Assembly: GCA_029834535.1 (NCBI GenBank)
Contig: JAQMWT010000308.1
Location: 174,864 to 238,863 of the forward strand
Source of the DNA: Chrysophaeum taylorii
Lineage: Eukaryota > Sar > Pelagophyceae > Pelagomonadales > Pelagomonadaceae
DNA length: 64,000 nucleotides
Direction of reading: 5' to 3'
Within the stretch, counting starts at the first letter, position 1; each line of letters begins with the position of its first letter. The notes under the pieces were generated by a model. It was not told where the DNA came from, did not search any database, and saw only the letters and a program-made list of their open reading frames with translations. A program made the translations under genes and the position numbers. Positions 18,807 to 64,000 of the stretch are shown piece after piece.

Positions 18807-18836
18807 CCCCCTCTTAGCAGTCGACATTTAAAGACA
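18807..18836 (+). mobile_element. Scrap of LINE 3' end between Helitron units
   Basis: CCCTCTTAGCAGTCGACATT followed by TAAAGACAGA matches the LINE 3' terminus seen at 40900-40923 (plus) and 17108-17137 (minus). Only about 30 bp remain, joined to U1 on one side and U2 on the other. Confidence 0.6.
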
Positions 18837-20346: not shown

Positions 20347-23300
20347 TTATTGGAGTATTTCCTTGTAGACAATGTTTTTCGTGTAGGCGCCGGGGTGGCG
20401 GCGGGCGTAGTCGCGGACGAAGGTGTTGTTCTCGGCGTAGAAGACGAAGTCTTCACGGCGGCCGACGCGGCTAAGGGCGACGTATAGTTGGCCGTGGGAA
20501 AAGACGGGTTCGGGGAGGAGGAGGCCAACCTTTTTAAGGGTTTGGCCTTGGGATTTGTTGATGGTCATCGCGAAAGCGGGGCGCAGTGGGAACTGGCGGC
20601 GTCGCAATGTGAAGGGGTAGTCGTTGCCGGTGGTCGTAAACGTGAAGCGGGGGACCAGGAGCGTGTGTCGTTGGGGGACGCCGGCTTCGTCTTTGATCCA
20701 GGTGGCGAGTTCGAGGAGGCAGTCGGTTACGACGCGGAGGAGAACGTAGCGCGTTCCGTTGGAGTGGAGGGGGGTGGCGTTTCGAAGGAGCATGACGGGC
20801 ATGCCGACCTTGAGTGTGAGTTCGTGGGGAGGCATGCCGCTGGGCGTGAGGGAGTTCAAGAATTCGATGGGGTAGAGGACGGGGTCGTCCTCGTATGCGA
20901 CTTCGTTGGCCGAGTGGAAGGTGTGGACGGTGGAGCCGGGGAAGGTCGCGGTCATCTCGGCGTTGTAATGGTCGACGTTCGAGTTCTTGGGCGTGAGAAC
21001 CGCGCGTTCGAAAAGCCACGCGGGGTCGTCGAAGCGGGCTTCGCCGTAGACGCGGGCGGTCAAGTCGGCGGGGCTGTCGACGTGGGGCACGTGGGTGCCG
21101 AGGTTGATCCAGTCGTCGCCGAGGGCGGGCTCGGTGGGCAGCGTGCCGTTTCCGACGCGGAGGAGGAAGTCGGCGAACTGTTGGAGGTCGACTTGGTCCT
21201 GGCCGCCAGACATTTTGACGCGCATGTTGACGGTGAGCTCGCGGACACGAACGTGGGCCCAGACGGGCGCGTTCTTGATGCAGGCGCCGACGATTTCGTA
21301 CCGGCGGCCGCGCTTGACGATCGGCAGCGTCTGGCGGAAGTCGCCGAGGAAGACGATGACCTTGCCGCCGAAGGGCGCGTCGGTCATGAGGATGTCGCGC
21401 AGCGTGCGGTCCACGGTCATGAGCGTGTCCTTGTTCGTCATGGGCGCTTCGTCCCACAAAATGAGCTTGGCCTTGGTGAGGACGTCGCGGGTGCGGTCCT
21501 TCTTGTTTCTCGTGACGTTGCAGACGCTCGTGTCGGACACGTTGAGCGGGATCTTGAAACGCGAGTGCGCGGTGCGGCCGCCCTGGAGGAGCGTGGCGGC
21601 GATGCCGGAGCTCGCGGTGGCGAGCGCAACGTGGTGGCGTTCGCGCACGGCTGCGAGGAGCGTCTGGCAGAGGAAAGTTTTGCCGGTTCCCGCGGCCGCC
21701 TGTATGAAGAAGGCGGCGCCGGGCGCGAGGAGCATGGGGGGACTACCTTGGTAGACGAAGATCATGATCTCGTTGAAGGTGTCGAGCTGCGGCTGGTTGT
21801 GCTGGCGCATGCTTTCGAGGTTGCGGCGCAGGATCTCGGCGAGGGCGGCGCGCTTCTCCCGGGTGTCGCCGAAGCGGAGTTCCTCGGCGACGAACCGCGA
21901 CGTGAGCTGCTCGGCCTGCGTGGGCTCGGGCAAGCCGACTTGGCGCATTGTCATGCCGGCGCCTTCGAGGTGGGCCTGGATGTCGAGGAGGGCTTCGTTC
22001 TCCATGCTCTCGTTGAGGTCGAGGTCCTGGTTCCGGTGATGTGTCCGGTACCGGCGGAGGATGTCGGTGGTAAGGGTTTTCTTCGTGGCTTCCCAGATGG
22101 CGAAGGGGTTAGTGAGCTCGCAGTGAGTGATGAGCATGGCGAAGAGCAACCGTTGCTCGTACGCGGTGTTGGAGACCGCGGCGGCCTCGAGGCACTTGGT
22201 CCATTCGGCGTCGTCGTGGAGGAGGTTCCGCGCCTTGCAGGCTTCCTTGAAGGTGTCGTACGGCTTGTCGTTGTTTTTCCCGGGCACGATGCGCAAGTCG
22301 GAGTAGCAGGTGGGCCCGCGGACGACTGTCAGGAGGACGCGCATGTGGAAGGCCTCCTGGTTCTTGGGAGAGACGGCGTACATGCGCGCCACGGTATCCG
22401 TCGAGAAGTCGTTCTCGTCGAGGCCGAGGCGCTCGCGGCGTTTGGTGTCTCCTCTGCTTCGTGGGACCCAAGTTTTTTTGTCTGAGAACGTGTAGTGTGT
22501 GGGGAGGTCGGTGTAGAGGAGCGTGAGGGGTCGACCTGGTAGGGCTCGATGTGCTGGATGCCGTTTGCCTTGTTGGTCTTGGCGGCGTTGTTGAGGTTGA
22601 ACATGGCAGTGAGCGTGGTGTCGGGGGGGTCTGGGCGGCGAGCGAGCGTTAGTAGTCGCGGAGGGCGGGGTCGTCGGAATCCTGCCAGTAGACCCGCTGG
22701 CCGTTTTCGAGGTGGACGGCGAGGTGGAAGACGGCGGGGTGCCTCGCGTGGGTTTCGTTGCCGAAGATGCGGTTGAGGGCCTCCGTCGAGCAAATGTAGC
22801 GGCCGGTCTGGTACGTCGAAATCTCGTCCAGGAGGCGGGGGTCGCGGTGGCCGCGAGACGTGTCTTGCCGGATCGTGATCGTTGCGCTGTCCGGGCCCTT
22901 GAAGACATATTTGTACAGGTAGGCGCAGACGTGGATGGTGCAGCAGATCTCGACGTTGAGGTGCGTCTTGTATTTCTTGAGGAGCCAGGGGTTGTAGGGG
23001 ACGATCCATCTGTTGTCGATGACGCAGGGGCGGCCGTTTATGACCTTGGTATAGGTGCGGCCGCCGTCTTGGGGCGAGCGGCGGCGGTATTGGACGTAGT
23101 TGTCCTCCGGGACGGTCGTGTGCCGTTGGAATTCTTTGGGAAAGCGCTTGGAGCATTCTCCGTCCTGCATGCAGGGGCACGACGGGTAGTCGCGGCCGCA
23201 GGGCCCGTGGAGCATGTGGTTGACGACGATTTGGTGGAGTTCCTTTGGCTCGGGTCGTTCGGGTCGGGAACTCTGCGCAGGCGACCTTGTCGACGTCGTC

Positions 23301-25742
23301 GGCGGCGATGTCGTCTCGGCTGTCGAGGATGAGGAGGATGTGGGCGTGGGGCAGGCCCCGCTTCTGGTACTCGATCGTGTACGTGTACGCGTGCACGCGG
23401 CCGAGGACGGAGCGCTCGGTGAGGTCGCGGAGGAGCTCGGCGAGCTTAATGTGAAAGACGCGGATGATGAGGTCGGGTCGCATGTGGGGCTCCTCGTGCT
23501 CGTAGAGCTCGGCCATGATTTCGTCCCACTTCGGGTTGCACGTGAACGTAATGAAGAATGAGGGCCTGCCGCAAACTCTGACGATGGCCATGGCGTCCTG
23601 GTAGGCGGCGCGCATCTCTCGCTGCGACCCCTTGAACGTGGACGGGAGGATGCTGCGTTTGCCCGCGTTGCCCGCCTCGCCATCCGCGACGGCGTCTTGG
23701 AGACCGAAGTAGAGATCGGCGCGCAGCTTCTTTTGGTTCCGGCGGCACCACTCGATCCGCGACACCTCCATCTTGACGGCGCCGTCGAGGAAGTATTCGT
23801 GGCTCAAGCGGTTGAGGCGGTGGATGAGGGAAAAAACGTGGAGGGCGAGGGCCAGTACCGGCGAAGTGTTGTTGTTGCGTCTCTGTTGGTCTCGCTCTTG
23901 GTCTCTCTGTTGGTCTCGTCCTCGGGGCCGGCAGGTGGTTTGTCCGGGTTTTGGCGCGCGGAGGTGCGCGCGATAAACGTAATATTCCTTTGGCGTGATG
24001 GTGGTGAGGCGGGCGGTCCCGTCCTCGGGGTTAACCTTGTTGATTCCGATGTTGTAGCCGCTGGGCCGCCCCGTGGGGAACATGAGGGTGAAGTGAAGGG
24101 GGTCGCGCTGCCCGTTGTAGATGCTGATGAGCTCGAGCTCGGGCCGCCCGTGCGCGCCCTCGCAGTGGACGACGATGTCGCGGTTCGGCACGGCGGTCTC
24201 TTCGTCGCCGAGGACGATCATGGCGACCTCGTCGACGACCTGCGCGTTTCCGCGTCGCGCGTGGTGGTCGGCGGGCCTTTGTTCCGCGTGGATGACGATT
24301 CGGGCGTTGGTTGCGTCGGCGTTCGCGCTGTTGATGTAGGCGTCGGCGTGTCGAAACGTTCGGACGAAGCGGTTGTTGGCGAGGATGACGTCCTGGACGG
24401 TGCGGACCACGTGATCGTTCAGGAGCGAGGACTGGAGGCGGTGCTGGAGTTGCGTGCCGGGATCGAGCAGGTACGTCTGCGCGAACATCGGAGCCTCGCC
24501 GGCCCGCGGCCGCAAGGAGCCGAGGCGGTGGTGTATTTGCCCCGAGATGCGCAGGGCGCTGAGGGGGCACCGATTGGTCGAGGTCGTGCTGCTTCTGGCG
24601 AACGGGCGCTCGTCGTGGACCTGCATGCTCGCGAACGTGAAAGCGTTGTTGAGCTTGCGGGTGTCGGCTCTGAAGGCGATGCCGGTGGCGTGGGGTGTCG
24701 TGATGAGATGGACGAACTCCGGAGGCGGGTTCGGAGGGTCGGGAAGCACGATCGTGCCCCCCGAGCAGCACCGGTTGTATGTGCCTCTGGTCGTCTCCTC
24801 GGACTGCCAGTAAAGCGCGTAGCAGTACGGACAGACTTTGTCCATCGCGCCGGCGTCGTGCGTGGGGACGTTTCTGTCGTCGAAGTCCTCGAGGGCGCAG
24901 CGGGCGACGAAGGTCGGGCGTCGCCGCACTTCGTTGACGACATTTTGGCGGGCGCGTCGCTGTTCGGCGGCGTTGGCGGCGAGGCGCGCGGCGCGCTGCC
25001 CGTGGTCGTCGGTTCGTTGGCGCGACTCGCGTTGTTCCTGGGCGTTGGTTGCGAGCCGGGCGTCGCGGTCCCCTCGTTCGTCGGCGCGGTCGCGCGATTC
25101 GCGCTGCTCGGCGGCATTGGTCGCCAGTCGAGCGTCGCGCTCGCCCCGCGCGTCGGCGCGCGCTCGCGACTGCCGCTGCTCTTCCGCGTGCGCGTCTCGC
25201 AGCGCCGCGGTCTCCTCGGGCGAAGCCGCGTGGCGCGCGGCGAGGCGGCGGTGGCGCTCGCGGACGTATCTGTATCCGGCGTGCTTGAACGTAAAACGGT
25301 ACCCCGTTCGATAGCAGGTGTCGCAGCCGCGTCCCGCGCACGACGCGCACGCGTCCTCGCGGTGTTGCCAGAAGTCGAGGATCTGGGCATCGGTGAAGCT
25401 CCGATACTTAGCCGCGGCGTCGTCGACGGCGGTTTCGCGGGTGGCGGCGGGCAAGGTCGCGTCGGGAGCGAGCGCGGCCGGGGCGACGCGAGGCTGCGGA
25501 GGACCGTTGACCGTGCGTACCTGTCCGACGGGCGCCGGAATCGCGTCGTTCGCGTCGGTCCGGAGGAGGCGCGCGGCGTTGATTCGACGTTGGCGGCCGT
25601 AGACATACGTGTAGCCATCGTGCTTCGTCGAGAATCGGCGGCCGGTCCGGCAGCAGGCGTCGCATCCCTCGGCCGAACAGGGTTCGCATCGTTCGTTGCG
25701 ATCGCGCCAGATCGCGAGAATTTCGTCGTCGGCGAGGTCCAA
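20347..25742 (-). pseudogene. Helitron RepHel protein (HUH endonuclease plus PIF1 helicase), frameshifted
   Basis: Order from the N-terminus: two Cys modules 'CEPCSAEGCDACCRTG' (about 25650-25700) and 'CASCAGRGCDTCYRTG' (about 25310-25360); an Arg/Glu/Ala repeat (24920-25200); a third zinc motif starting 'VCPYCYALYW'; the Rep domain with 'RPSFFITFTCNPKWDE', the HUH motif in 'GLPHAHILL' (about 23340) and the tyrosine motif in 'YLYKYVFKG' (about 22905); then the helicase with Walker A 'AAAGTGKT' (about 21675), Walker B 'LILWDEAP' and 'TINKSQGQT' near the C-terminus. The frame changes at about 23270, again at about 22650, where one frame ends in a stop, and at about 22530. Such a protein would cut and transfer single strands for rolling-circle transposition; this copy cannot encode it in one piece. 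No start codon survives. Confidence 0.85.
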
Positions 25743-26712
25743 GTGCAGGCCAGTAAGTTCACCAATCTCTAACCCCAGTAAGTTCACCTGGTCCCAGTAA
25801 GTTTCATATAAGTTCACCTGGTCAGTAAGTTCACCTAGCTCACACCAACTCCTTTGAGCTCGTCGCTCTCGCCTCCGCCAATCTAAGCTGCTTTGATCCG
25901 CACGCGCCGCCAACCTTTGAGTTTACTCTAAAACCCTTTACTCTAAAAGCCCCAGTATGTTCACCTGGTCCCAGTTTCACCTGGTCACTCAGCTCACCTA
26001 GTCCCAATCTCAAACCCCGGTAAGTTCACCTGGTCCCAGTAAGTTCACCTACAGTGCGCGTGTAGACGCCGGGAGGGGCTTATCGGTATTGCGCAGCACG
26101 TGTGGGGTAGGGTGGAGTCGTCGACCCAGAAGAGCATATCCTCGGGGTTGCCGATCGACAGAGAGCCACGTAGAGCTGGACGTGGCAGAAGACGGGCTTG
26201 GGCAAGAGGACGCCGACCTCGCGGGGCGTCTGGCCCTGGCTCTTGTTGATCGTTTGGCGTCGGCGGGCCTTAAGGGATACAGGTTGGAGGAGCCTCGGTG
26301 ACAACGACACGATCGATCATGTATCTGGTACCGTTGCAGTGGCCGTGCGACGGGTCGAGGTTGCGAAGACTTTAAGCTCGCGATCAAAGTCAGCATGCCG
26401 TTGGTTGTCAGGGAGTTGAAAACTCGACTGTAAAGAGCGAGGCGTCGTCTTCCGACCCAACCTAGTCGGCCGAAAAGAACTCCGACGCCTCGTCTCCGGA
26501 AAAAAGGCCGCGGTCATGCGCGCGTTGTCAGCATCGACAACATCGTTTCGACGGGGCGTGAGAATGGCGCGCTGAAAGAGCCGCCGCGGGTCGTGGAAAT
26601 AGTCTGCGAGGTCGCCGTAGACGGCTTGGAGGATCACTGTCTGGCTCTCGCGCCTACCTGATCCTTACTCTCGCGCCTATCTGATCCTTACCCTAAATCG
26701 AGGGACAAACAA

Positions 26713-26747
<35 letters not shown>

Positions 26748-26815
26748 TCTGTCGATTAGTAGTTAGGAAACAGACAAACAGACAAACAAACAGACAAACA
26801 TCTGTCGATTAGTAG
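25743..26815 (-). mobile_element. Helitron-derived unit U3
   Basis: It has the same structure as U1 and U2: 3' end GGCCTGCACTT at 25743, iterons to 26050, helicase remnant 26049-26640, the TAAGGATCAGGTAGGCGCGA pair, and a CAAACAGA-type microsatellite. The 5' terminus appears twice in direct order, at 26748-26767 and 26798-26817, suggesting a duplicated or slipped end. It abuts and interrupts the Rep gene. Confidence 0.75.
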
Positions 26816-27820
26816 TTACAAGTGCAGGCCAGTAAGTTCGCCAGTAAGTTCACCTGGTCCCAATCTCTAACCCCAGTAAGTTCACCTGGTCCCAGTAAGT
26901 TCACCTAGTCCCAATCTCTAACCCCAGTAAGTTCGGCGTAAGCCCACTCGTGCTCACATCCACTCACCCCACTCTCCCTTCGAGCTCGTCGCTCTCGCCT
27001 CCGCCAATCTAAGGCGCTTTGATCCGCACACGCCGCTAACATTTGAGTTGACTCTAAAACCCCAGTAAGTTCACCTGGTCCCAGTAAGTTCACCTGGTCA
27101 CTAAGTTCACCTAGTCCCAATCTCAAACCCCACAAAGTTCACCTGGTCCCAGTAAGCTCACCTACAGTGCGCGTGTAGACGCCGGGAGGGGCTTATCGGT
27201 ATTGCGCAGCACGTGTGGGTAGGCTGGGGTCGTCGACCCAGATGAGTATATCCTCGGGGTTGCCGATCGACAGAGAGCCACGTAGAGCTGGACGTGGCAG
27301 AAGACGGGCTTGGGAAAGAGGACGCCGACCTCGCGGGGCGTCTGGCCCTGGCTCTTGGTGATCGTTTGGCGTCGGCGGGCCTTACGGGATACAGGTTGGA
27401 GGAGCCTCGGTGACAACGACACGATCGATCATGTATCTGGTACCGTTGCAGTGGCCGTGCGACGGGTCGAGGTTGCGAAGACATTAAGCTCGCGATCAAA
27501 GTCAGCATGCCGTTGGTTGTCAGGGAGTTGAAAACTCTACTGTAAAGAGCGAGGCGTCGTCTTCCGACCCAGCCTAGTCAGCCGAAAAGAACTCCGACGC
27601 CTCGTCTCCGGGAAAAAGGCCGCGGTCATGCGCGCGTTGTCCGCATCGACAACATCGTTTCGACGGGGCGTGAGAATGGCGCGCTGAAAGAGCCGCCGCG
27701 GGTCGTGGAAATAGTCTGCGAGGTCGCCGTAGACGGCTTGGAGGATCACTTTCTGGCTCTCGCGCCTACCTGATGCTTACTCTCGCGCCTATATGATCCT
27801 TACCCTAAATCGGGGGACAA

Positions 27821-44084: not shown

Positions 44085-45662
44085 ATGCTCGAGTTGAGGA
44101 CGCCGTCGCTTTGGGGAGGGGAGGAGGAGTACGAGGACATCGAACTCGGCATAACCGAGGCGAGCGACGACGGCAGCAGCCTTTTTCTTTACGAGTTAAA
44201 TGGCTCGGTTTGGGACGTTAGAGACGGGTCGAGAGTTGAAGCGAAGGAGCCAGAACCAACAACACCAACAAAAGAAGATAGGGCGGCGCCGAAGAAGAGA
44301 GCGAGGCTCGTTCCTGTGGTGGACCTTGGCACGGATATCTGGGTGACGGTCGAGTTTCTGGTGCGGAAGAAGGAATTTTTTTTCGGATTCGCATCCCTCG
44401 GAATTCTGATCGGAAGCGCGATAATTCGTTTCCTCCTAATAAAACGGCGGAGGGTCGTGGACGTGTACGCGAGGTCTTTGCTCGAGTTCGCGCTCCAGAC
44501 CTACGTCGCGACGCGTTTCGGGCTCACGCCTGCTCTGATCGTATCTTTGATCGTTTCGATCGCGGCGATCGCGATAGGCCTCGCCGAGTTCGAGTTGGCC
44601 CGCGAGCCGCGCGTCCTCAAGTGCGTGGCGGGCGCGTACTTCGCCGCAACCGTTTTTGTCCGGGTTGGGGTCGTTGCGGCCTTCTTGGTCGAATTCGAGA
44701 AGAAGTATGTGTCGTACTTGATCTTGCCGTACTTTTTGGTTTCGAGAGTCTTGATCGACCCGCAAGCGACGGAAGAGAGAAAACGGCTCGCGTACGCCTT
44801 GCGACACGAGTGTCTGGACGACGCTCGAGTCGCTTGCGTTGCGTGCGGCGGGGTCTTGGTCCTCCCCGTTTTCTTCGTGCTCAAGAACGTGCCGGCGGCG
44901 ATGGTCCCGTTCGGGCCTCCGAAGCATTACTTCGACCAACGAGACGACGACGACGAAGCTTCTTCTCCCCACGCGGATTCGAGCTGGTCGCACCGCCTGG
45001 GGAGTCTTGCTGCGAGAACAAACATCCTCCTGCATTTCATCGAAAACGCCCTCATCCTCCTCCTCCTGCCTTCTTCTTCTTCTGGAGTTTCTTTTTGGAT
45101 ACTCTCGGGCTTTGGCGCGGTTTCTTACGCGACCGCGCGCGCGCTCGACGCGAGAAACAAGCAACGGCAGAGGCGGGATGTCCTCGCGCTCGTTCGCCGG
45201 AACGGCCGCGCCCTCGATACGGTCGACCCCAAGTACAGGGAAGACAAGGAGATCGTTATGGCTGCGGTCCGGCAAAACGGCCTAGCCCTCGAGTCAGCTT
45301 CCGACAATTTGAAGGAAGACAAGGAGATCGTTTTGGCGGCGGTGCGGCAAAACGGCCTCGCCCTCGAGGATGCCGCCGATAGTCTGAAGAAGAACGAGGA
45401 GGTCGTCCTCGCGGCGGTGCAACAAGATGGTTGGGCTCTCGAGTACGCCTCGCCCGGCCTCAAAAACGACAAAGACTTTATCCTTGCCGCCGTGCACCAA
45501 AACGACGAGGTTCAAAACGCCGCCAACGAGCTCACCACCGACGACGACGAGCACAAGTCTGCTTCTACCAACAAAAAGCGCTCTGCCCTCGAGCTCAAAA
45601 ATGAGACGGACTTTTTAGAGGCAGCGAGAGCAGGTCGCATCGCCTTTATTCATTTCTCCTGA
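44085..45662 (+). CDS. Multi-spanning membrane protein with C-terminal DUF4116 repeats
   Basis: A 525-residue protein. Residues 1-80 are acidic and soluble. Residues about 85-345 hold six to eight hydrophobic segments ('FFFGFASLGILIGSAIIRFL', 'ALIVSLIVSIAAIAIGLAEF', 'VFVRVGVVAAFLVEF', 'LLHFIENALILLLLP' and others); their spacing and the 'F.EN' helix are loosely reminiscent of XK-related proteins, but I am unsure. Residues about 375-485 carry four DUF4116 units of about 26-35 residues, each with the pattern 'DKEIVLAAVRQNGLALEDA'. DUF4116 repeats are common in algae and protists and have no known activity. The combination of an integral membrane part with DUF4116 is unusual. The gene is intact and starts at the first ATG, downstream of the dispersed repeat. 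Confidence 0.6.
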   Translation: MLELRTPSLWGGEEEYEDIELGITEASDDGSSLFLYELNGSVWDVRDGSRVEAKEPEPTTPTKEDRAAPKKRARLVPVVDLGTDIWVTVEFLVRKKEFFFGFASLGILIGSAIIRFLLIKRRRVVDVYARSLLEFALQTYVATRFGLTPALIVSLIVSIAAIAIGLAEFELAREPRVLKCVAGAYFAATVFVRVGVVAAFLVEFEKKYVSYLILPYFLVSRVLIDPQATEERKRLAYALRHECLDDARVACVACGGVLVLPVFFVLKNVPAAMVPFGPPKHYFDQRDDDDEASSPHADSSWSHRLGSLAARTNILLHFIENALILLLLPSSSSGVSFWILSGFGAVSYATARALDARNKQRQRRDVLALVRRNGRALDTVDPKYREDKEIVMAAVRQNGLALESASDNLKEDKEIVLAAVRQNGLALEDAADSLKKNEEVVLAAVQQDGWALEYASPGLKNDKDFILAAVHQNDEVQNAANELTTDDDEHKSASTNKKRSALELKNETDFLEAARAGRIAFIHFS

Positions 45663-52696: not shown

Positions 52697-53713
52697 CTAC
52701 GCCGGGCGGACCGAAGAGTGGTGGTGGGTGATCTTGTACTCGCCACCCGATTTGCGCCAGACATACGAGAAGCGAGCATCCGTCGGGGCACGGTTGCGCC
52801 CCTCGCCAAGGTCGAACGTGTACATGCCGGAGTGCAGGTACGCGTCGCCGTCGTCGAAGACCATCACGCTGTCGTCCGTGATGGTCCCGAACGGGTTCTT
52901 CTGCACAAACGCGGTGAAGTAGTCCTCGGTGCTGGAGCCGTCCTTGATGTGCACCTGCGACACCGTCGGGAGGAAGGAGAGGTCGCCAGCAGTCGAGTAC
53001 AGCGCGGCCACCTTCTTCGGGTCCTTGGTCTGCAGAGCGTCGTTCCACTTCTGGAAGTTGTCCCTCGCAACCTGCACCATGTCTGGGCCGGCCGGGCGCA
53101 CCGAAGAGTGGTGGTGCGAGATCCGCCACGCTCCGTCCTCTTTCTTCCACACGTACGAAAAACGCGCCTGTACCGGCGCGCGCTCCGCACCACTCCCAAG
53201 CTCGAACGTGTACAATCCCGAGTGCAGGTACGCGTCGCCGTCGCCGTACGGCTGCACGCTGTCATCGGTGATGGTGCCGAACGGATTCTTCTGCACGAAC
53301 GCGGTGAAGTACTCCTCGGTGTTGAAGTCGTCCTTGATGTGCATCGGCGACACCGTCGGTAGGAACGACAGCGCCTCAGACGAGTACAAGGCCGCCACCG
53401 CCGTCGGGTTCTTGGTCTGGAGAGCGTCGTTCCACCGCTTGAAGTTTTGGCGCGCGAGCTTGATGTCCACCTTCTCCGTGGCCTTTGGCGTCGCGGGCGT
53501 CGCCGCGTGCATCGGCTCGACGCCACCGTGGGAGCTGCTCTTTTGAAGGCTCACGCCCAGCGCCGCCACACCCGGCAGCGCAACCAGCAGCGTGTCGGCG
53601 TCGATCATCGTGACGGCGGTGCGGGAAGAGCGAGCGGGGGACGACGGGATGCCGCGGAGGGGAGCCGACGACGTGAAGGCGGAGGCCGCGGAGACGAAGA
53701 GCAAGAAGGACAT
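52697..53713 (-). CDS. Plastid-targeted tandem SnoaL/NTF2-like protein
   Basis: A 338-residue protein. The N-terminus MSFLLFVSAASAFTSSAPLR is a signal peptide ending in ASA|F, followed by a Ser/Arg/Pro-rich transit segment: the bipartite targeting signal of secondary red plastids. Two homologous domains follow (about residues 85-205 and 213-335), each beginning 'NFxKWNDALQTK.P..VAALYS' and containing 'FLPTVS..HIKD', 'EEYFTAFVQKNPFGTITDDS', 'GDAYLHSG.YTF.LG' and ending 'ISHHHSSVRPA'. This is the cone-shaped SnoaL/DUF4440 fold related to the CaMKII association domain; function is unknown, possibly small-molecule binding. The two domains are similar enough at DNA level to indicate a fairly recent internal duplication. 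Intact single exon lying between retroelement remnants. Confidence 0.75.
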   Translation of the reverse strand: MSFLLFVSAASAFTSSAPLRGIPSSPARSSRTAVTMIDADTLLVALPGVAALGVSLQKSSSHGGVEPMHAATPATPKATEKVDIKLARQNFKRWNDALQTKNPTAVAALYSSEALSFLPTVSPMHIKDDFNTEEYFTAFVQKNPFGTITDDSVQPYGDGDAYLHSGLYTFELGSGAERAPVQARFSYVWKKEDGAWRISHHHSSVRPAGPDMVQVARDNFQKWNDALQTKDPKKVAALYSTAGDLSFLPTVSQVHIKDGSSTEDYFTAFVQKNPFGTITDDSVMVFDDGDAYLHSGMYTFDLGEGRNRAPTDARFSYVWRKSGGEYKITHHHSSVRPA

Positions 53714-53892
53714 GATTGTTTCGGCTGTTGTTGTTGTCTCGCAGGCTGCGCTATGCTTGCTTTGTCGAATCTGCCGACTTCGTCAATTTTTAGTGTCAAC
53801 GCGACGACGTGTCACGGAAGTTTCGGTTTTGGTGCGTCAGCTTAGTGACAGCCCTCGCTGGTTTTAAACCCTAGGCGACTTTAAAACAAACC

Positions 53893-54194: not shown

Positions 54195-54246
54195 CTTTGT
54201 AGTGGTTTTCTCAGATACCCGCCCCTCCTGGCCGGACAGGGGCCTC
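54195..54246. repeat. 52-bp block shared with 52083-52134, cut by the Ty3 LTR
   Basis: Identical to the other copy apart from two short indels. It ends GGGGCCTC exactly where TGTGGCG of the LTR begins. Confidence 0.8.
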
Positions 54247-54582
54247 TGTGGCGTAAGGAGAATTTTAGGGGCTACCTGGCGTGCCTTCGAATCCTGGCTC
54301 GCCGATTGCGTCCGTGCCCTTGGTGGGATCACTGGACGGGGATGGCCGTTCTCCCGCCACGCGACCACAAACAACTCCTGCGCCTGGTCCTCTCAACTTG
54401 AGGATCGGCTGTTGCTTTATGATCAAGGATAATCGAAATCAGAAATCAGGGTGACACATGTCACGGAAAAGGAAGATGATGTCAGAGAAAACTCTGACAT
54501 CATCGGAACGGAGTAGGGTGCCCCTGATAATGGGGGGCCCTAGAAGAGGGGTAAGCCTTAGGAGGCGGGAGTTGCCGCCACA
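54247..54582 (-). repeat. 3' LTR, 336 bp
   Basis: On the element strand it begins TGTGGCGGCAACTCCC and ends TTACGCCACA, giving the inverted ends TGTGGCG/CGCCACA with canonical TG..CA. The terminal TTACGCCACA recurs at 64000-63991 next to the primer-binding site, which fixes this edge. A purine-rich stretch ACCAGGGGAGTCC immediately precedes it, and the pol frame stops 41 bp upstream at 54623. Confidence 0.75.
54475..54504. promoter_or_regulatory. Perfect 13-bp hairpin within the LTR
   Basis: GATGATGTCAGAG (54475-54487), loop AAAA, CTCTGACATCATC (54492-54504). A second short stem GTGACA/TGTCAC lies at 54451-54464. In the element's transcript these would fold in the repeated LTR portion; a role in termination, packaging or silencing is speculative. 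Confidence 0.85.
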
Positions 54583-54622: not shown

Positions 54623-57600
54623 CTAGCGCGAGGAGCGCGGCTTCGCCTTACGAGCATCTCGTGAACGAATCTTCTGGTAAACGCGGGTGATGATCGGTTC
54701 AGGAACTCGACCACTGCGTAAAGTAAACTTGGGGACCAACACGTCAATCTCGTGCGGAGCGAAATCCGCGACACAAGGAGTTGTGTTGGAGGAAATTCGG
54801 GACTTGTCGGTGAAACTTCGACCTTCAACGTCCTTGAATTCGGGCTTGAGCTTGCGGTGCGAAAGGTGAGAGGTCGGCTTGAAATAAGCGACATCATCGT
54901 TCGGACCCAAATCGGAATAGAAATGTAGAGCGACACGATCATTTTGGTAATCGTAAGGCTCGTAAACTTCGGCAACATAAATCTTCTTGCGCCAATCAGA
55001 GCGCTTCCGGTCAGGAATCCGGAAAACAACAAACTTACCGTGCTGATAATCATCACGGAAGGTTTCTTCGGGTTTGCGGATGGTTTGATCAACGATCGGA
55101 GGTACCATCACCGGCGTGATCTGACTTACATGAACACGTCGTTCTTCGGGCGGAGAGTCGAGAGACTCAATCCTATAGGTGACCGGGGAGAGGTTCCTTG
55201 ATAATAAACGGCCCTCGCCATTCCGGTCGAAGTTTGTTCTGAAGGAAAGGGATGTAGAGCAAAACGTGCGATCCTTCCTTGTATTCAACATCAACATGAT
55301 CAGCATTGTAAGCCAATCGCTGTTTCTTCAAAGCTTTATCACGAGCCTCGCGGACGAGCTTTGTATAATATTTCAATCGTTCGCGAGTCTCGGCGACTGC
55401 ATCAGAGCGAGTCTTCGGCAATAATCGTGTATCAAAATCCATGAGCGTGTAGTCAGTCGGTAGCATCGGCTGACGGTTCAGGCGCAGCATAAAGGGAGAA
55501 ATCTGCGTGCCTGGAATAAACTTGCGGTTGTAGCAAAACGCAATATAATGAGCAAAGTCAGGCCAATCCGTGATGTTCCGGCCTTGAAGGCAAGCACGGA
55601 GGAAGGCCTTGATAAATCGGTTGACACGCTCAGCCGGGTTCGACTGGGCATGATAGGGAATCGTAGTTTGGTATCGTGTGTTAAAGAGATGGCAAAACTT
55701 GCGCATCAACTTGTTCACGAACTCTTTACCGTTGTCGGTACGAATCATCTGGGGCAAGTAGCCCTTGAGGAGAATGTTAATGACAAAAAGACTCGAGGAC
55801 AGACTCAGCGGTCTTATCGTTCAAAACATCCAGAATCAAGAAATGCGAGAACGGATCAAAAAATACTAGAAGATACGTCTCGGGACCAGCGCTGGGCAAG
55901 GGTCCAAATAAATCCATGCAAAGAACAGCACCATCACCATCGTAGACGGGCTGTTGCAAGAGTCCAGCTCGTTTCGGCTCAGGCGTACGAGCTTTCTGAC
56001 AAACTAAGCATTCAGCAATGAAGACTCCAACTTCGTTCGACATGTGAGGCCACCAAAATCGTTCTTGGATAGCCTGGACGGTACTGTGACGTCCCATATG
56101 ACCACCGTTAACCGGAGTGTCATGGTAGAGTCGAATAATACGTTTGCGCAACGTAGCAGGTGCAACAATCATCGGGTGCGAATCAGCAGAAATGCGGTAA
56201 AGAACATCTTTAACGACTTCGAATCGTTCGTTCGCTCGGGAACGTCGTGGCGTCTGACCTTGGGCCATTCGGTAGCGAATATCCTCGCACGTAGCATCAG
56301 ATTCTTGCTCACGTGCGATCTCAGCGAGCGTCATATTATCGGGTATCTTATCGATATAATCTTTGTAAGCGGCTGCGTCCTTGAAGATCTGTGGCTCATC
56401 ACGCGCACGGTTCTTCCGACGTTGTCTCGTAGCGTGAGACGTAGCCAATTTCATCGGATCCTTTTCAGGGTCTTCGTCTCCGTCTTCCGGCAGTTCGGTC
56501 GTAATAAACGACATTATGAAGTGGCAGCCAGAGACGGGAACTCCTCGGTCATCAACAGGTCGGGGAAGCTCTTGGAACACTAGATACGCGTGGTTCAAAG
56601 GTTCTCCAAACTCGTCAGTCTCGATGACATGATCAATCGGGTTGCGGGAGAGACAGTCAGGGATACTCATTCCCGGTGACTTTCCCGGCTTGTAACCAAG
56701 TTCAGGGTCAAAATTGGCGAGGCGCATCGCCCAACGAGCAAGCTGCCCAGACGAGTGCGTCGCCTTACGTAAAAACGTCAAATTTCGGTGATCGGTCTCC
56801 AAAACAGTCCGGTGCCCTTCGATGTAGGCTCGAAAGTGCTCTAGAGAAAGTATAACTGCCAGCAGCTCTAGCCGACGGGGCTCATAATTCCGCATCTCCT
56901 TCGGCACAGCTCGGCTCCAGTATTCAATTACTCGTTCTTCTCGAGTCACTCTTCCGGCATCGTCCTTGACTTCGACAATTTGGAAGAGATATGCTCCAAG
57001 TCCATCCTTGGAAGCATCGGATCGGATCTGAAAAGGCAGATCATAATCGGCGTGGTAGACTCCTCGGGAATCAACCAAAGCTTCAATAATCGTATCCCAA
57101 GCTTTCTGACACTCGGGCGTCCACTCGAACTTTACACCTTCGAGGCATAATCGTCTCAACGGTTCCACAATCTTCGAGTAGCCCTTCACATATCGCCGGC
57201 AGTAATTACTCATGCCGATGAAAGAGCGTATCTGGGTCTTCGGGAAGTATTCGGTAAAGTACCTGGAATCGGCATCTTCTGCAGTGCTTCCAGCGTCTTC
57301 GGATTCGGCTTCAAGCCTTCTGGGGTAGAAATGTGTCCCAGAAATTCTATATCATCTTTGAGAAGGTGGAACTTCGCGGTTCGACCGCTGTACCCTCTCT
57401 GTGCCAAATGACACATCACTTCGATCAAAACTTGTAAATGTCGATGAAGATCGTCGGATCCCATCATAATATCGTCAACAAACGCAACCAAGTCTTGATA
57501 CATCCATTTCGAAAGGTCGCTCGCCATTTGCTTGCAGAAAAGAGCTCCGGCTGTCTTCACACCTAGAGGTAATCGCAAGAAACTGTGAGCGCCAAGTGGG

Positions 57601-58717
57601 CTAACCATCGTGACAGCGTCCTGCGCTGCCGGATCCAGACGAAGGTTGTGGTATCCCCACTAATATCAATGCATGTCCGCCATCGTCTCATCGCGAGAAA
57701 GGCTAAAGCATCATCTTGTCGAATGTTTGGCCAACTGTCATTGACCAATTGATCGTTGAGCTGACGTAAGTCAACTGCAGCACGGAACGCGTTTGACGTT
57801 CCAATCTCAGCTCCTTTCTTCGGAAGCATCAACACAGGAAAGCCCCAAGGTGAGTTGGCCGGACGAATGACTCCATCCCGGCACCACTCGCTGATCTGCT
57901 TGCGGAGACAATCGAGCTTCGCAGGCGTCAATCGGTAGGGCGTCATCTTAATCGGTCGCGGATTCGCGTCTTTGAATCGTAGAGACACAGGAGGCGAGTC
58001 CACAGGTCTCATAATCGGGTCGAAAAAGGCCCAAGAATATTGCACACAGTGACGGAGCATCAGTTTCGCCTCGTCATCTAAGTGCGGATTGTCAGGAATT
58101 CCCAGCTCCTGCACAACCTTGTCAACTTCTTCCTTCGTAGGAATTTTAACTTTCATCGCTTCGTTGTCCTTGACATGCTCAGGAGTCTGCGGCAGTGGTG
58201 CACCCTCGGCATCGCGCGGCGCATCTTTCCATGGCACATCGAACTTTTTCTCGTATTTTAGTTTCACTTCCGGGTGGCTTTTGTTGATCCTCTCGCCTTT
58301 GACACGAACACTCGGCTCGCTCTTAATCTTCGGTTCCCGATCTCGCTCAGGATCTGGCGGAACGTCTAAATTTGGTTGTCGGGGGGGCCCAGCAGAAGAA
58401 GCATGAGACGTCCCCGGCTCATCTGTTGCAGGCGGAATCAACGGTACCTCTGGAGGTTTCCATTTGGTGCGATCTTGAAGATCATCAGTCGACACCCATC
58501 GTATGACACGTGTGCGCGTGTTTAACAGCGGAACTTGTACGTGACGAAGGGTGGTTTCATCAATTTGTAAATAATAATCAAACGGTCGGTCTGCAGGACT
58601 CAACGCTGACGGCAAAGCTTCGCCGCTCAGGTGAAATTCCTTGGTCACAGAGTTGTGCAGATCGAGCATTAATAAGGCCATCGTGTCAGGTGGCACGACG
58701 GACGCCAAGTGTTTCAA
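54623..58717 (-). pseudogene. Ty3/gypsy Pol: reverse transcriptase, RNase H, integrase
   Basis: RT begins in the 58717-57563 frame ('PYRLTPAKLDCLRKQI', 'GFPVLMLPKKG', 'DLRQLNDQL') and continues in another frame with 'FLRLPLGVKTAGALFCKQM' and the catalytic 'FVDDIMMGS' (about 57465). RNase H: 'FQIRSDASKDGLGAYLF' (about 57010), 'RRLELLAVILSLEHFRAY', 'ETDHRNL'. Integrase: zinc module 'HDTPVNGGHMGRHST..C..C' (about 56000-56120), then catalytic 'CMDLFGPLP', 'IRTDNGKEF' (about 55735) and 'NPAERVNRF' (about 55630); C-terminal extension to 54623. Frame changes near 57600, 57210, 55780 and 55200. In an active element these would copy the RNA and insert the cDNA. Confidence 0.85.
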
Positions 58718-58790
58718 CGAGGTCGTCCTGGAGAAGCCGGCCCAATCAAAATCAGGGGCATCGTCAGCAACTCCGCAGTCATTTCCAGAT

Positions 58791-59564
58791 TCAAAGATCT
58801 GTAATCGGAACGGTGCGGCCTACGCGAAGCGGGACACGCGTAACAGTATAAGCTGCGTCTGTCGCGGCTCGTGATGATCCTAAATTGTTCATCTGAAGTA
58901 AATGTCGTTCGTCGGCGTAGCCAAGTGCGGCGGCGAACTCTTGCTGCATATTCTTGCAAGTCTTTGGAACTGCGCGCAAATGGAGCGGATGGCTGGAAAC
59001 CAACAATCGCACGCGACAGCTCATCAAACTAGGAGTTATGTCGTAAAAATTGACGACGTAAACGTAAGGGTGCAAACGTGCAACGTAAGAAATAATCGAA
59101 GCCTCCTGCTCTATCAACCACATGAAGAAACCAGCCATCTTGCATAATTTCATCGTCCAGTGGGTAGCGGTGACTCCCTTCCCAACATCTCTGGAAGTCA
59201 AGTTGCACAGAGCGGAGTGTACGCAGGGTGGCGACGCGACACACATCGACGACGACCATTCCGCGTAGGGTAAATAAGATTCGATCAACCGTAAGGTTGT
59301 AACATAGCGACCACACAATGTGTGCTGCACCACAGGAATATTCGGAAAGTTCTTGCGGTGGATCTGGTTGGCGGTGTCCGACGCATCGAGTGCTAGCACG
59401 ACTCGAAACGACGTCCCACACGTTTCGTTGGCTCGTTGGAGACCTAAAGTACTGCCTCCGCTCCACTGAACAGCATCACCACCTTGCGATAATTGGAAGC
59501 CATTGAACCTTTTCATATCGGCGGCGGATCTCCGCTTCGGTGATCGCGCGGCATTTCTTTTCAT
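58791..59564 (-). CDS. C5-cytosine DNA methyltransferase domain within the Ty3 polyprotein
   Basis: About 257 residues in one open frame. Family motifs in order: motif I 'VQWSGGSTLGLQRA' (residues 32-45; FxGxG-type SAM loop), motif II 'VVLALDASDTANQIHRKNFP' (55-74), motif IV 'CVASPPCVHS' (108-117) with the catalytic Cys 114 (codon at 59225-59223), an acidic position in 'MWLIEQE' (148-154) where ENV of motif VI is expected, motif VIII-like 'SCRVRLLVSS' (182-191; RxR), and 'AAYTVTRVPLRVG' (238-249), like the 'TVT' stretch before motif IX/X. The recognition domain is short and the C-terminal motif X is not evident; the frame ends at 58791. It sits between protease and RT on the same strand, so it is part of pol, not a host gene. 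Known enzymes of this fold methylate cytosine in DNA; activity of this copy is uncertain because ENV is replaced and flanking frames are broken. Confidence 0.7.
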   Translation of the reverse strand: MKRNAARSPKRRSAADMKRFNGFQLSQGGDAVQWSGGSTLGLQRANETCGTSFRVVLALDASDTANQIHRKNFPNIPVVQHTLCGRYVTTLRLIESYLPYAEWSSSMCVASPPCVHSALCNLTSRDVGKGVTATHWTMKLCKMAGFFMWLIEQEASIISYVARLHPYVYVVNFYDITPSLMSCRVRLLVSSHPLHLRAVPKTCKNMQQEFAAALGYADERHLLQMNNLGSSRAATDAAYTVTRVPLRVGRTVPITDL

Positions 59565-60765
59565 CTTCTTCCGACCTTCGAGCGAAATCGTCGCTGCCTT
59601 CAGGTCGTTTGAGGGTGGACTTGTCCGTCATAGCGGTCGTAGCGTCCTTCTGCACCGTGCTCAGCAGCATCGGCGGGGGAGATTCGTCGCATCGCGTCAA
59701 GTGACTAGCGACAGAAACGGTGAAAGAAACGTTCCCCTTGTCGTATCCTTCTTCACATTCTTTCGTAAGTTCGTTGATCGTAGAGACGTTCAACTCATCT
59801 TCGTACCTAACGATATCACCAATCGCAAGGGCTTCGCCTTGAGTGACGATCGTCGGCACTTCTTCCGTGGCAGTAACTGCCACCCGAGCAGCGGACCGGT
59901 CGCGCTCTTCGCAAGAAGAACACATTCCTTCGACAACTCCCAACTGCTCGTTCTCAGCAAACGTAGCGACGAACACCTGTCCTTTTTCCATAGGCTCGAC
60001 AAATAACCGGCGATTGTACGTTCGACGGGCTCGATTTGAGCGTGCGCGCAGCGCCATTACTTTCGCGCGTCTTCTCCCGGAGCTGGGGAGAATTTGGTCG
60101 TAGCATGTCCCCGCGTAGCCAAGGCTACCTTACGTTCCGGCGGCGGGCTTCGGCATCTTTAATCGTGCTCAAACGAGCGTAAACTCGAGTCTTGACCAGG
60201 TCGAGACTCTTCCGAAAGGCATCGTGTTGATGATTGTAAATCGGTACGGTTATCGGATTTCGATCGTAAATAGGCCGAAAGGTCACGATTGGTGCATCGA
60301 CTCGTTCATCCTCAACTTTAATCTTCTTGCGCCCGTACGACTTGGGTTCGACAAAAACAGATCCGATCATGGGGAAATCCACGATGGCCTCCTAACTGTA
60401 TATCGCGCCCTCCCAACAGGAACAGATATTCGTATCGGCTAATAGCGACAATGGGGCAGCGTCGTCGGCGAAAGCGACCCGAAGGGCGATCCAACGATGA
60501 TCGTCGTCGTATTCAACCTGATCCGCAGCTTGCGCTTAATCGGAAGTTCGCCTTCATCGAAAATCAACTGATCTTTGGTCAACCTGACCATTTCTCGGGC
60601 AAACATAAGAAACATCTGCCATTCCATCGACACCGATGGTCGTCGAGAATTTCGGTCCGTCACGATTCCTGTAGATGTGACAGCCATAAACGTTAGAGAA
60701 CCCGTATCTAAACAACTGAGGGTAATCAAATCATCTTCGATCGTCTTGCCATCTCGCGGCGTCAA
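59476..60765 (-). pseudogene. Ty3 aspartic protease and linker to the methyltransferase
   Basis: The 60765-60439 frame reads 'ITLSCLDTGSLTFM' with the retropepsin active-site D-T-G (codons about 60700-60712) and ends with 'TTTIIVGSPFG', matching the second conserved strand of such proteases ('ILG.PF'). After frame changes, 60057-59476 reads 'RRLFVEPMEKGQVFVA', resembling the linker that follows protease in gypsy elements, and ends 'EAEIRRRYEKVQWLPI' where the methyltransferase frame takes over by overlap (59564-59476). Confidence 0.6.
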
Positions 60766-60795: not shown

Positions 60796-63700
60796 TCATC
60801 TCCGGGTTGGGCATCGATACCGCGGCTTTGCTTTCGTATCATCTGTTGTTGGCGTCTTCGCTAACGCTCGCGGCGCCTCTTTATCTGGCGGCTTCCGCTC
60901 TTCCTCCAGACAGACAATCTCAGAAAAACGCGCTGGTAGGGGATCCTGGTCTTCGTAGTTCACGGAAGCAAAGGACCCTCCCATAAATCATTCATTTCGT
61001 CTTTCCAGAATGCATCCAAATTCATTCGTCGCCTGCTGATCCTCATCAGCATCGGCGATCGGTTCCGTGTCAGCTGCGGCTTTGAGTCTGCAGCTGCGCG
61101 GTTGTTCTGGTGGCTTCTTTAGCGAAACCCGCTTTCGTCCACCAATCCTGCAGGTTCCACGTCGGCTCGTCTTCGTCCCACTTGAGAACGCTGCTAATCT
61201 TCTTCTAAACTATCCTTTTCTTCCGGCGGCGTATCCGTGTCTCGATCCGTAGTAATCCAAACCGTTTCGGGGGTCCGCAGAAAGATGGCGTCGTCCCCGA
61301 CGTCAACTTGTCGTAAACCGTCGTCTGCAATACTGCGCTTGGTCATCGTCTCGTCAGTCGAAATGCGCACGAGCTATCACTGCAGAATCCATGTCTGGCT
61401 CACAGCCAGTTCGGTCGCCAGCGGTCGTCTCTGGAGGGTCCAAAGATAAGCCGATGGCATCGGCGGCTTCTCATCGTAAAAATAAACGGTGGGTCGTCCG
61501 TACCTGTCAAATAACGTTAACGCACACTGGTTCAAGTAGCTTCTTCATCTTCCGAATCTGAATCGCCTTCCCAGTATCGTGGAGCTTCAAGTTCCTCGCT
61601 CGAATCTTCGAGCTCATCGCTCGACATCTGCTCAAATCCAGCTAAAGACCGACGATTGGTCAGCACGTCGTTGGGTGGCTCGTCCATCGGTGGGCGAGCG
61701 ATCTTCGAATGCGGCTGCGGCGGCGTCGGCTGCGTCGTCGGTGCGGGTGTCCGTGTTCGGGCGCACCGTCACCCATGGTAACTGTTGACCGCGGTCGTAA
61801 ATGCAGCGTTGTGCTCGAAAAACTCGAATTATATTGGTGTCGGCCTCCGTCGTATCTGTCGTCGCGCGATCGGCGTCGTCTGTGCCGGCGCGAACTTCGA
61901 CTGGGGCTCTTGTTATCTTTGTCTCTCTCTGGCGTCAGTTCGGCAGGTCCTAGTACCTCTGGATCGTCCCTGTAGGCGACTGGTGCTCCCAAGTCTATCC
62001 GAACTGGCTCAATCGTCTCGTCTATCGAAATATCGACGCCTTCGTCGTCTTTTGCCAAAACCCGACCAAACGTAACAAACTCGGTTTGCCAATAACTCCG
62101 TGCCTCGGGGTCGGAATTGCTTTTTCCGCTCTGGCGGTTTCTTCTCAGGAAACATGAGTCGTATCCATCGTCGGTACGCTCATCTTCCTATTATCCATGC
62201 TGATCGTCCCATCCAAATTCGGTTCCGGCGGCGCTATACTCATCCCTCATTGTATGTTCGGGATCTTTCTTTATCACGCGCCATCATATGCAGGCTGGAA
62301 AATCTTTTCTTCGTTCGCAGTAATACGCCGGCTTTCACTGAGCTCCAAAGGCAGTTCATGCGTTATAAGATTCTTCATCTCTTCCGCTTTCGTATTCATT
62401 TTTCGGCCGTTTCACTCGGCCTCTCATCCACTCCATCGCTTGAATATCGGCAACGCCTCGTCACGAAAATGTCGGCACGAAATGTCTGCCATCGTCAGGG
62501 AATAAAACATCTGCAAAAACGTTGCAGTCGGTTCGTCGGGGGCTGCAAAGAAGGCGCGTCGTCCCCGACGTCATATCTGTCAAAAACTGGCCACCAAAGG
62601 GCACGTGACGTTCGATGGGTGTGTACCAGGTGCGCGCTTATCTTCGCGTAATCTCTGCGACGATCGTCGATCGATCGTGGAGGCGACGTGTCATCCACTT
62701 GAATGTTCGGAGGTAAATCATAGCATCGAGCGTAGCAGCGGCGGGTCCCTTACTTTGGGCGTCATCGGCTGCACGGGCTCGTAAATCGGATTCGCACATA
62801 ACTCCGGCGCGTCGTCAAGACCAGGGTTGTGTCAGCTGACGACAACGCATCGTGCCACCAACGGTGACACCGGGTTGAGCCGTTAGACGGCTTTTCACCG
62901 TAGTTTAACGACGTTTCGGTCAAATTCTTCATTCCTGTGGGGATTTTGGTTTGGGCAGCCCTTCGACTTTATTGTCTTGATCGTAGTTTAACGACGTTTC
63001 GGTCATCTCGACACTGTCGTCGTCGTCGCGCGGCTTCCTGACTTTCGCTCGCGTTCGCGTGGGCGGCGGTACTCCGAAGGTCGGAATTCTCCTCGACCGT
63101 TCGCTCGCCCGGGCGATTCGGCATACGTCCATCCTTTCACGTGTCGCGCTTGCTTGATCTTGGAAGGCGTCTGCTCGAGCATTGGCCATGCACGCAGTTG
63201 CTCGCATTATTTTTATCTCCTTCCGGTGCGCCGTTCTTTTCGTTCGCCTTCCCCGTTTGTTTTAACGTTCTTGCGCGCGTTCGTTCTCTTCGCGTAATGC
63301 CCGCAAGTGAGCCTTCGTAACCCATTCATTTTCGTTGCATCCGGGGGTTCTGCACGCGTTGACGGTCGCTCGATCGTCCTCCCGCCGGTCTCTCCGTGGC
63401 TTGCCGTCGTTGTAGTTCGCTCTTCTTCCTCGTCCATCTGTATCGCTCTTCTTCATCGTCATCATTATCATCATCGTCATTCCGCTCGTCTCATCCTGAC
63501 GGCTTGGCGGTTCTTCATATCGCGCCGCTCGACGGCAGCATCATCGTCTTCATATCGGCTCGCTCGTTCTAGTCGGCCGAGATCGAGCGGGTCCAAAATG
63601 TTGAGTCGTCGTCGTTCTCGTGCTCCTTCGGCTCGGAACTTCTAATCGTCCACGACACGCGTAATATCGTCGTTGCGTGCGTCTTCCACCTACACCTATC

Positions 63701-63959
63701 CGTACGGTGGGCGGCGTCCCGTCTCTGCCCGGCGCCTATCCGTGAGTTGCGATCTCACTCCGCCGCCTGCGGCGCGGTACCCGTTGCGCGTCGGTTAGCA
63801 CCAAATCGCGCGTCGTCACTTCCGACGACAAACGGTCCGGCCGGGGAACTTTCCCACGGCGCATGGTCCTTCTGGTTCCTTGTCGGCGCGCTTGATCAGG
63901 GCGCGCGCGGCTTGTCCGCATGTAGAGAATGCAAGATGCACTAGTTCGCTGCGACCTAT
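60796..63959 (-). pseudogene. Degenerate 5' coding region of the Ty3 element (expected Gag)
   Basis: No frame longer than about 130 codons. Patches in changing frames look coding, e.g. 'GVDISIDETIEPVRIDLGAP' (about 61990-62040), 'DAPSLQPPTNRLQRF' (about 62510-62560), 'DDSVEMTETSLNYDQDNKVE' (about 62950-63020). CCHC knuckles or a capsid signature were not found, so Gag is inferred from position only. Confidence 0.4.
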
Positions 63960-63967
63960 ACGTCGCT

Positions 63968-63988
63968 CGAATCTCGTATCCTCCACCA
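63968..63988 (-). promoter_or_regulatory. Primer-binding site
   Basis: On the element strand it reads TGGTGGAGGATACGAGATTC, two bases after the LTR end. Its complement GAATCTCGTATCCTCCACCA has the form of a tRNA 3' end: T-loop-like CTCGAATC, acceptor strand, then CCA. It does not match initiator tRNA-Met; the tRNA identity is not determined. Confidence 0.65.
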
Positions 63989-63990
63989 CC

Positions 63991-64000
63991 TGTGGCGTAA
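63991..64000 (-). repeat. Inner end of the 5' LTR (cut by window edge)
   Basis: TTACGCCACA on the element strand, identical to the end of the 3' LTR at 54256-54247. The remaining ~326 bp lie beyond the window. Confidence 0.7.

Follow-up and report, generated by a model that had tools for sequence, protein, structure and literature searches.

Does a retrotransposon of the pelagophyte alga Chrysophaeum taylorii carry its own cytosine methyltransferase (MTase)? Hosts commonly use cytosine methylation as a weapon against retrotransposons, so that elements equipped with their own writer of this mark invert the usual picture. The question is posed by the end of the window, by which we mean the whole stretch of 64,000 nucleotides analysed here. 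An earlier note on this DNA had placed such an enzyme between the protease and the reverse transcriptase (RT) of a minus-strand Ty3 element and had regarded it as a further capture in a probable stramenopile. Clear precedents come from two lineages, the dinoflagellates and the charophytes, in the available text of PMC5890265. Our comparisons, made at the level of sequence, support a Ty3/gypsy family that carries a C5-cytosine-methyltransferase-like domain between protease and RT, and this domain is almost certainly a genuine C5-MTase domain, under selection and part of the element.

A Ty3/gypsy LTR element fills the window on the minus strand from position 54246 to its end, which is also the end of the contig (Table 1). 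Pfam matches for RT, RNase H and integrase, together with the LTR, bear out the minus-strand Ty3 assignment, and the placement of the domain was also read correctly, with LDTGS on the protease side and RT on the other. The most useful reference is a copy on contig C5, to whose 3' end (L047) the window 3' LTR is 99.2% identical. At the opposite end, positions 2–1054 of L048 align with window 63010–64000, leaving approximately 15 bases of the 5' LTR in the window. Matches of the integrase stretch at 54626–55820 to rve (2.7e-5) and Integrase_p58_C (0.004) are both below the cut-off, while its counterpart in the C5 copy reaches rve above the cut-off; PF00078 is likewise present in the C5 copy. On the Gag side, tblastn with the C5-copy frame gave 37–46% identity over stretches that cross frame changes. 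The window copy has several frame changes along pol and gag, including inside motif I and before motif X, and is not functional.

Table 1. Features of the Ty3/gypsy element at the end of the window (window coordinates).
Feature	Position	Strand	Evidence
3' LTR	54246-54582	-	98.5% identity to the 5' LTR of the C5 copy (L048 1044-1380)
Remainder of integrase, C terminus of Pol; more than one frame	54626-55820	-	Pfam matches below cut-off
RNase H, integrase zinc-binding domain, start of integrase core	55777-57351	-	PF17917, PF17919, PF17921
End of MTase domain, linker, RT; two frames	57213-58819	-	PF00078 in 57213-57659
C5-MTase domain, four frame pieces	58601-59494	-	Motifs; open relatives reach PF00145
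Open frame of the earlier note, 278 aa	58791-59627	-	Frame and motifs re-read
Protease-like LDTGS motif	60697-60711	-	LDTGT at the same place in the frame of the C5 copy
Gag-side part, two frames, without a named family	61130-63009	-	tblastn of the C5-copy frame
Inner end of 5' LTR, start approximate, cut by the contig end	63986-64000	-	L048 alignment

Several other features of the window were recorded. A Helitron with PIF1 helicase and Helitron_like_N in two frames lies at 20347–25922 on the minus strand. A minus-strand gene at 52697–53782 has a duplicated SnoaL-like/DUF4440 domain, with halves 79% identical in DNA and a leader that by eye is of plastid type. On the plus strand, a frame at 44085–45662 has DUF4116 in four stretches, along with a 75-base tandem repeat at 45239–45420. 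Finally, a dispersed repeat occupies window positions 1–563, 17893–19715 and 25838–27654 as well as L037 1–800 (87–92% identity between the window and L037); fragments from similar positions also match L047 next to the LTR.

The hallmarks of C5-MTases are motif I (FxGxGG), the catalytic-site Cys of PPC in motif IV, ENV in motif VI, RxR in motif VIII and GN(A/S)V in motif X. Every motif quoted by the earlier note was found again in the window copy, namely SGGSTLGL, ALDASDTANQIHRKNFP, ASPPC, LIEQ, CRVRLL and TVT, and motif VI does read IEQ or LEQ and not ENV. The interval it assigned to the domain, 58791–59564, contains the frame and the motifs but not an intact domain, which is broken into four frame pieces over 58601–59494: the start of motif I lies at 59459–59494, motifs I–VIII and TVT at 58818–59462, and motif X at 58601–58753, with frame shifts inside motif I and again ahead of motif IX/X. 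About 34 residues that precede SGGSTLGL in the same frame are outside the domain. Motif X had been called unclear; it could now be located as LASVVPPD, beyond the interval first given, and the usual GN before V is absent. In open copies, the domain extends from KVVMLFSGAGGSTLGL to LASVVPPD, with a short stretch between motifs VI and VIII and ASVVPP as motif X.

The window copy taken alone gives empty scans for its MTase domain (0 Pfam and 0 NCBIfam families), and open copies were therefore used for testing. The PF00145 comparison proposed earlier accordingly came out divided, with no match for the window copy, which is half of what the earlier note had counted against its own reading, and matches for open copies. 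The domain of the copy on contig C22 (P0002, from L006) scored 26.8 bits against PF00145 (E 4.3e-6; cut-off 22), a match limited to its first 57 residues, the part with motifs I–II. L060, of a more distant subfamily C, scored 27.3 bits, above the same cut-off, over motifs I–IV, while L054, another copy of this subfamily, remained under it at 17.1 bits. When scored within long polyproteins, the domain fell below the cut-off, at 21.6 and 18.6 bits. All of the 14 aligned copies of subfamilies A and B matched PF00145 at E <= 0.01.

Other profiles gave a similar picture. Two PHROGs families of DNA methyltransferases matched over motifs I–II (E 1–2e-6), and the NCBIfam dcm model scored 18.7 bits, far below its cut-off of 100.65. 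A profile of subfamilies A–C (A6) was compared with seven PF00145-type proteins, of which three came from the protein database, two were encoded on IMG/VR contigs and two were those of the host; it matched with 97.3% probability and an E of 2.1e-11 over columns 11–180, covering motifs I–VIII. When four other C5-MTase sequences were aligned with it, two rows being the Ty3 domain itself and one a copia-type domain described below, the invariant columns were one Gly of motif I, the PPC Cys, the Glu of motif VI, one Arg of motif VIII and a C-terminal Phe. AlphaFold modelling of the window copy (P0001) with three C5-MTases returned a pLDDT of 30.6 and a pTM of 0.18.

Searches for relatives gave few matches. 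For region 470–870 of P0003, no relative was found at E <= 0.01 among 7533 candidates (proteins of ~669–2128 aa). Profile A1 recovered one relative from the protein search (E 0.47); with A6 there were three at E <= 1, all of them bearing PF00145 and the strongest at 1.1e-3. In IMG/VR, P0002 yielded four stretches and no relative, and A6 yielded 41 stretches and one relative with 33% identity over motifs I–II. The latter is encoded at 5001–5216 of a viral contig (L063, IMGVR_UViG_3300028883_000054). The element was found in no other organism among the protein-database candidates and IMG/VR, neither of which is a eukaryotic genome collection.

Within the genome (70,800,356 bases in 697 contigs, the window being the end of contig C308), the domain recurs. 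At least 148 matches to P0001 were obtained, with 148 of 1024 first-look candidates scored, and, where the earlier note had suggested looking for other copies with intact frames, the C5 copy has an open frame of 3063 aa and a second C5 copy one of 3067 aa. The first of these shows PF00078, PF17917, PF17921 and PF00665 in order with the protease motif upstream, and its 2666-aa open part (L023) runs from the protease motif through MTase and RT to RNase H and then integrase, with the MTase being the one that scored a sub-cut-off 18.6 bits. No named Gag or protease family matched in this copy. A direct LTR pair of 341 bp with 98.2% identity belongs to it, with ends TGTGGCG and CGCCACA (TG...CA type), and the flanks of this one examined copy show no repeat indicative of a target-site duplication. 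The genome contains 99 occurrences of a primer-site-like stretch, with no tRNA gene identified for it.

Copies of subfamily A are 95–100% identical to L006 and those of subfamily B 80–84%, with L039 intermediate at 89%; subfamily C, represented by L060, shares 42% identity with A. The source of subfamily C was a set of ~950-base pieces upstream of 12 Ty3-type RT matches, chosen by eye from 152 listed matches because no MTase had been listed next to them. P0002 matched nine of these 12 pieces, in L058 over residues 259–286 only. In the remaining three, C51 and C311 have a common in-frame deletion after motif I and C494 retains scattered remnants, and thus the domain or a remnant of it is present in 12 of 12. 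The deletion junction is found at two places in the genome (C51, L064, and C311, L066, both of subfamily C); RT is open beside it at both, and the frame through the junction is whole at C311 and has a stop in C51. Since these two copies lost most of the domain and kept RT open, the MTase domain may be dispensable in cis. When the genome was searched with L060 itself, with 140 of 872 candidates scored, at least 148 matches were obtained; these include fragments, and at least one, on C676, is shared with the P0001 list. Separately, eight RVT_1 matches lie within ~56 kb of contig C696 (G000:C696) and are perhaps group II introns of a mitochondrial genome; the available text of PMC10366177 gives a 58-kbp mitochondrion for this species.

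The MTase domain is under purifying selection. Between an A copy (L018) and five B copies, dN/dS was 0.046–0.059 for the MTase and 0.027–0.052 for RT, as compared with 0.085–0.118 for the linker and 0.12–0.17 for the protease-side segment (alignable part only for the latter two); all these ratios are approximate because dS is mostly near 2. Across fifteen A–B pairs the MTase domain gave 0.045–0.065, and across 28 pairs within A it gave 0.02–0.55. Residue conservation was scored over the 49 matching loci. Among 48 readable copies, all 48 retain the PPC Cys and 47 the second Pro; both Arg of motif VIII are present in 46 of 46, the Gly residues of motif I in 47/47, 46/47 and 46/47, and the Glu of motif VI in 45 of 46 copies, with NV replaced by Q-E.

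These observations bear on the reading in which the frame arose by chance and encodes no methyltransferase at all. The broken frame and missing Pfam match of the window copy would suit it, but the existence of open copies in each of three subfamilies, together with significant matches between profiles and a dN/dS of ~0.05, leaves it a negligible chance. Chance occurrence of the motifs was rejected on its own terms: subfamilies A and C agree at 12 of 12 motif residues against a background of 114/272 identical residues (hypergeometric P 2e-5), the 12 having been picked among the known motifs once the alignment had been seen. The earlier reading, of a Ty3/gypsy element that carries a C5-MTase-like domain in a probable stramenopile, is supported by the PF00145 and profile matches, the domain order in one open frame of another copy, the recurrence of the domain and purifying selection. 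Chrysophaeum taylorii belongs to the Pelagophyceae (Ochrophyta, Stramenopiles).

Selection could also have retained the domain for a role in Pol that involves no catalysis, such as the binding of nucleic acid or S-adenosylmethionine. EQ in place of ENV, the incomplete motif X and the two copies that lack the domain past motif I are consistent with such a role, but subfamilies that share 42% identity all retain the PPC Cys, the Glu and the Arg, a retention that a purely structural role would not require, and we consider this explanation unlikely. The domain is probably active on some nucleic acid.

A PF00145 profile search of the genome (at least 57 matches, 123 of 474 candidates scored; intron-rich genes may have been missed) revealed a second family. 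Among the 57 matches listed, 55 fall on one other, copia-type family and two on host-type genes. The copia-type MTase domain (L043–L045) has the motifs TLPCQHLS and ENVPP. In the only copy that was followed, on contig C96 (L043–L046, G000:C96:63800-69600), it is in frame with a copia-type RT (PF07727, RVT_2, E 3.6e-39) and with a weak integrase core match (E 0.003, below cut-off). At least 150 matches to this domain, fragments included, were counted (144 of 651 candidates scored). Its dN/dS was 0.116 for the pair L043/L044 and 0.49 for the pair L043/L045, the latter including a misaligned-looking stretch; transitions within the pair L043/L045 (CG 14/567, CA 8/540, CC 8/558, CT 12/455) are too few to judge. 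The copia-type profile matches known C5-MTases over motifs II–VIII (92%, E 6e-7) and not the Ty3 domain, for which hhalign detected no similarity (0.4%, E 0.16, both profiles shallow), and this suggests that the two MTases were separately captured.

The two host-type genes differ in architecture. L041 (G000:C634) is a stand-alone C5-MTase that looks DNMT2-like, and L042 and L067 (G000:C621) belong to a gene with PF00145 and an SNF2 domain, the DNMT5 architecture. DNMT5a has been reported from pelagophytes in the available text of PMC9998398. We advance tentatively, as a single joint reading that may well fail in part, that Ty3 and Ty1/copia elements each captured a different C5-MTase and spread it widely, that the Ty3 enzyme acts on its own cDNA before integration, and that most recognisable C5-MTase sequences of this genome belong to parasites.

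As an overall explanation, to which we assign a probability of roughly 60%, the enzyme would be made within Pol, packed with RT and used to methylate the element's cDNA. A captured, highly diverged C5-MTase would be translated as part of a single Gag-Pol frame and could enter the virus-like particle alongside RT. There it might methylate cytosines of freshly made element cDNA, so that a new insertion would arrive pre-marked; such a mark might protect the cDNA against sensing by the host, or pass the copy to a host DNMT5-type enzyme for upkeep. Production with RT in Pol would lead to joint packaging, which favours cDNA as the target. The same target was proposed for SymbioDIRS, and retrotransposon DNMTs methylate CG de novo in yeast, according to the available text of PMC5890265. 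The narrower statement that the domain acts chiefly on element cDNA falls somewhat short of an even chance.

The copies themselves speak against heavy, lasting CG methylation. The CpG observed/expected ratio is 1.28 in the element and 1.24 in the rest of the window, and pairwise differences between copies (11 stretches, 101 aligned pieces) show no CG-specific excess of transitions (CG 3.4%, CT 4.3%, CC 3.2%, CA 2.8%), in a test that is confounded by coding selection and shared ancestry and is blind to transient, non-CG and RNA methylation. This touches on the possibility that the enzyme works in trans on host chromatin, spreading or redirecting cytosine methylation at insertion sites or host genes. 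Many open-frame copies exist in the genome and the DNMT5-like host gene with its SNF2 domain is a potential maintainer of such marks, but the position within Pol favours packaging with RT and CpG depletion is absent from the window; action in trans appears improbable.

RNA, for example the tRNA primer or the genomic RNA of the element, is another conceivable substrate. DNMT2 methylates tRNA, and it provided the best PDB sequence match of the Ty3 domain, at a non-significant E of 0.03; PDB sequence searches with the Ty3 and copia-type domains found nothing significant. The missing CG decay between copies would fit an RNA target, as would the SymbioLINE DNMT, which was inactive on DNA in yeast and for which RNA was proposed (PMC5890265, available text). 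The DNMT2 match is nevertheless confined to the motif I–II part, common to all C5-MTases, and no RNA-specific feature was found, so we regard RNA methylation as quite unlikely. Methylation of element cDNA by an enzyme packed with RT remains our preferred reading.

Two such families in a pelagophyte, one of them departing from the usual motif VI, would demonstrate repeated capture among distantly related algae. The species also offers a handy test system, with a ~71 Mb genome published from short and long reads (PMC10366177, available text), and the two copies deprived of the MTase by the same in-frame deletion provide a natural contrast. The main text of that genome paper, as available, has no word beginning with "transpos", and in the open literature, without most subscription papers and preprints, we found no published pelagophyte case.

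The available text of PMC5890265 describes DNMT-bearing retrotransposons in dinoflagellates (LINE and DIRS) and in Klebsormidium (Gypsy). Among the closest counterparts is KnitGypsy-Dnmt3 of Klebsormidium nitens, likewise an LTR element of the Gypsy type whose intron-free Pol frame includes a C5-MTase, with purifying selection on the domain (Ka/Ks < 0.2 in that study). It differs in that its enzyme was assigned to DNMT3 by a tree, whereas the Ty3 domain here is known by profile matches and reads IEQ/LEQ in motif VI; in its DIRS-like repeat arrangement, as opposed to ordinary direct 341-bp LTRs in one copy here; and in its charophyte host. SymbioDIRS-Dnmt3 and SymbioLINE-Dnmt of Symbiodinium, the latter with an orphan MTase class, resemble the present case in the large number of retroelement C5-MTases in an alga (PMC5890265, available text). 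They rely on a tyrosine recombinase (DIRS) or lack LTRs (LINE), whereas the element here has a DDE-type integrase; its in-frame integrase core (rve, H2C2) and its LTRs place it outside both groups.

A 2025 survey mentions LTR Copia and DIRS elements with DNMT3 and orphan DNMTs (PMC12344493). Its Copia-DNMT3 elements anticipate the idea of our second family, in a single sentence of the available text that cites streptophytes and dinoflagellates and no pelagophyte. A 2019 perspective (PMC6338049), whose available text includes no stramenopile C5 example, counts stramenopiles among the hosts of Ty3/gypsy and DIRS elements that encode Dam and Dcm. Compared with free-standing PF00145 C5-MTases (P0004, P0005 and P0006), the Ty3 domain aligns in the ordered motifs I, IV, VI (Glu) and VIII, and one comparison, of L060 with P0005, gave 28% identity across 95 residues (E 3e-9 for a single comparison of this kind); unlike them, it has IEQ/LEQ, a short VI–VIII stretch and ASVVPP, and sits inside Pol. 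Elements of this kind are thus already known, and what is new here is the pelagophyte host, the diverged MTase with its altered motif VI, and the presence of two such element families in one genome.
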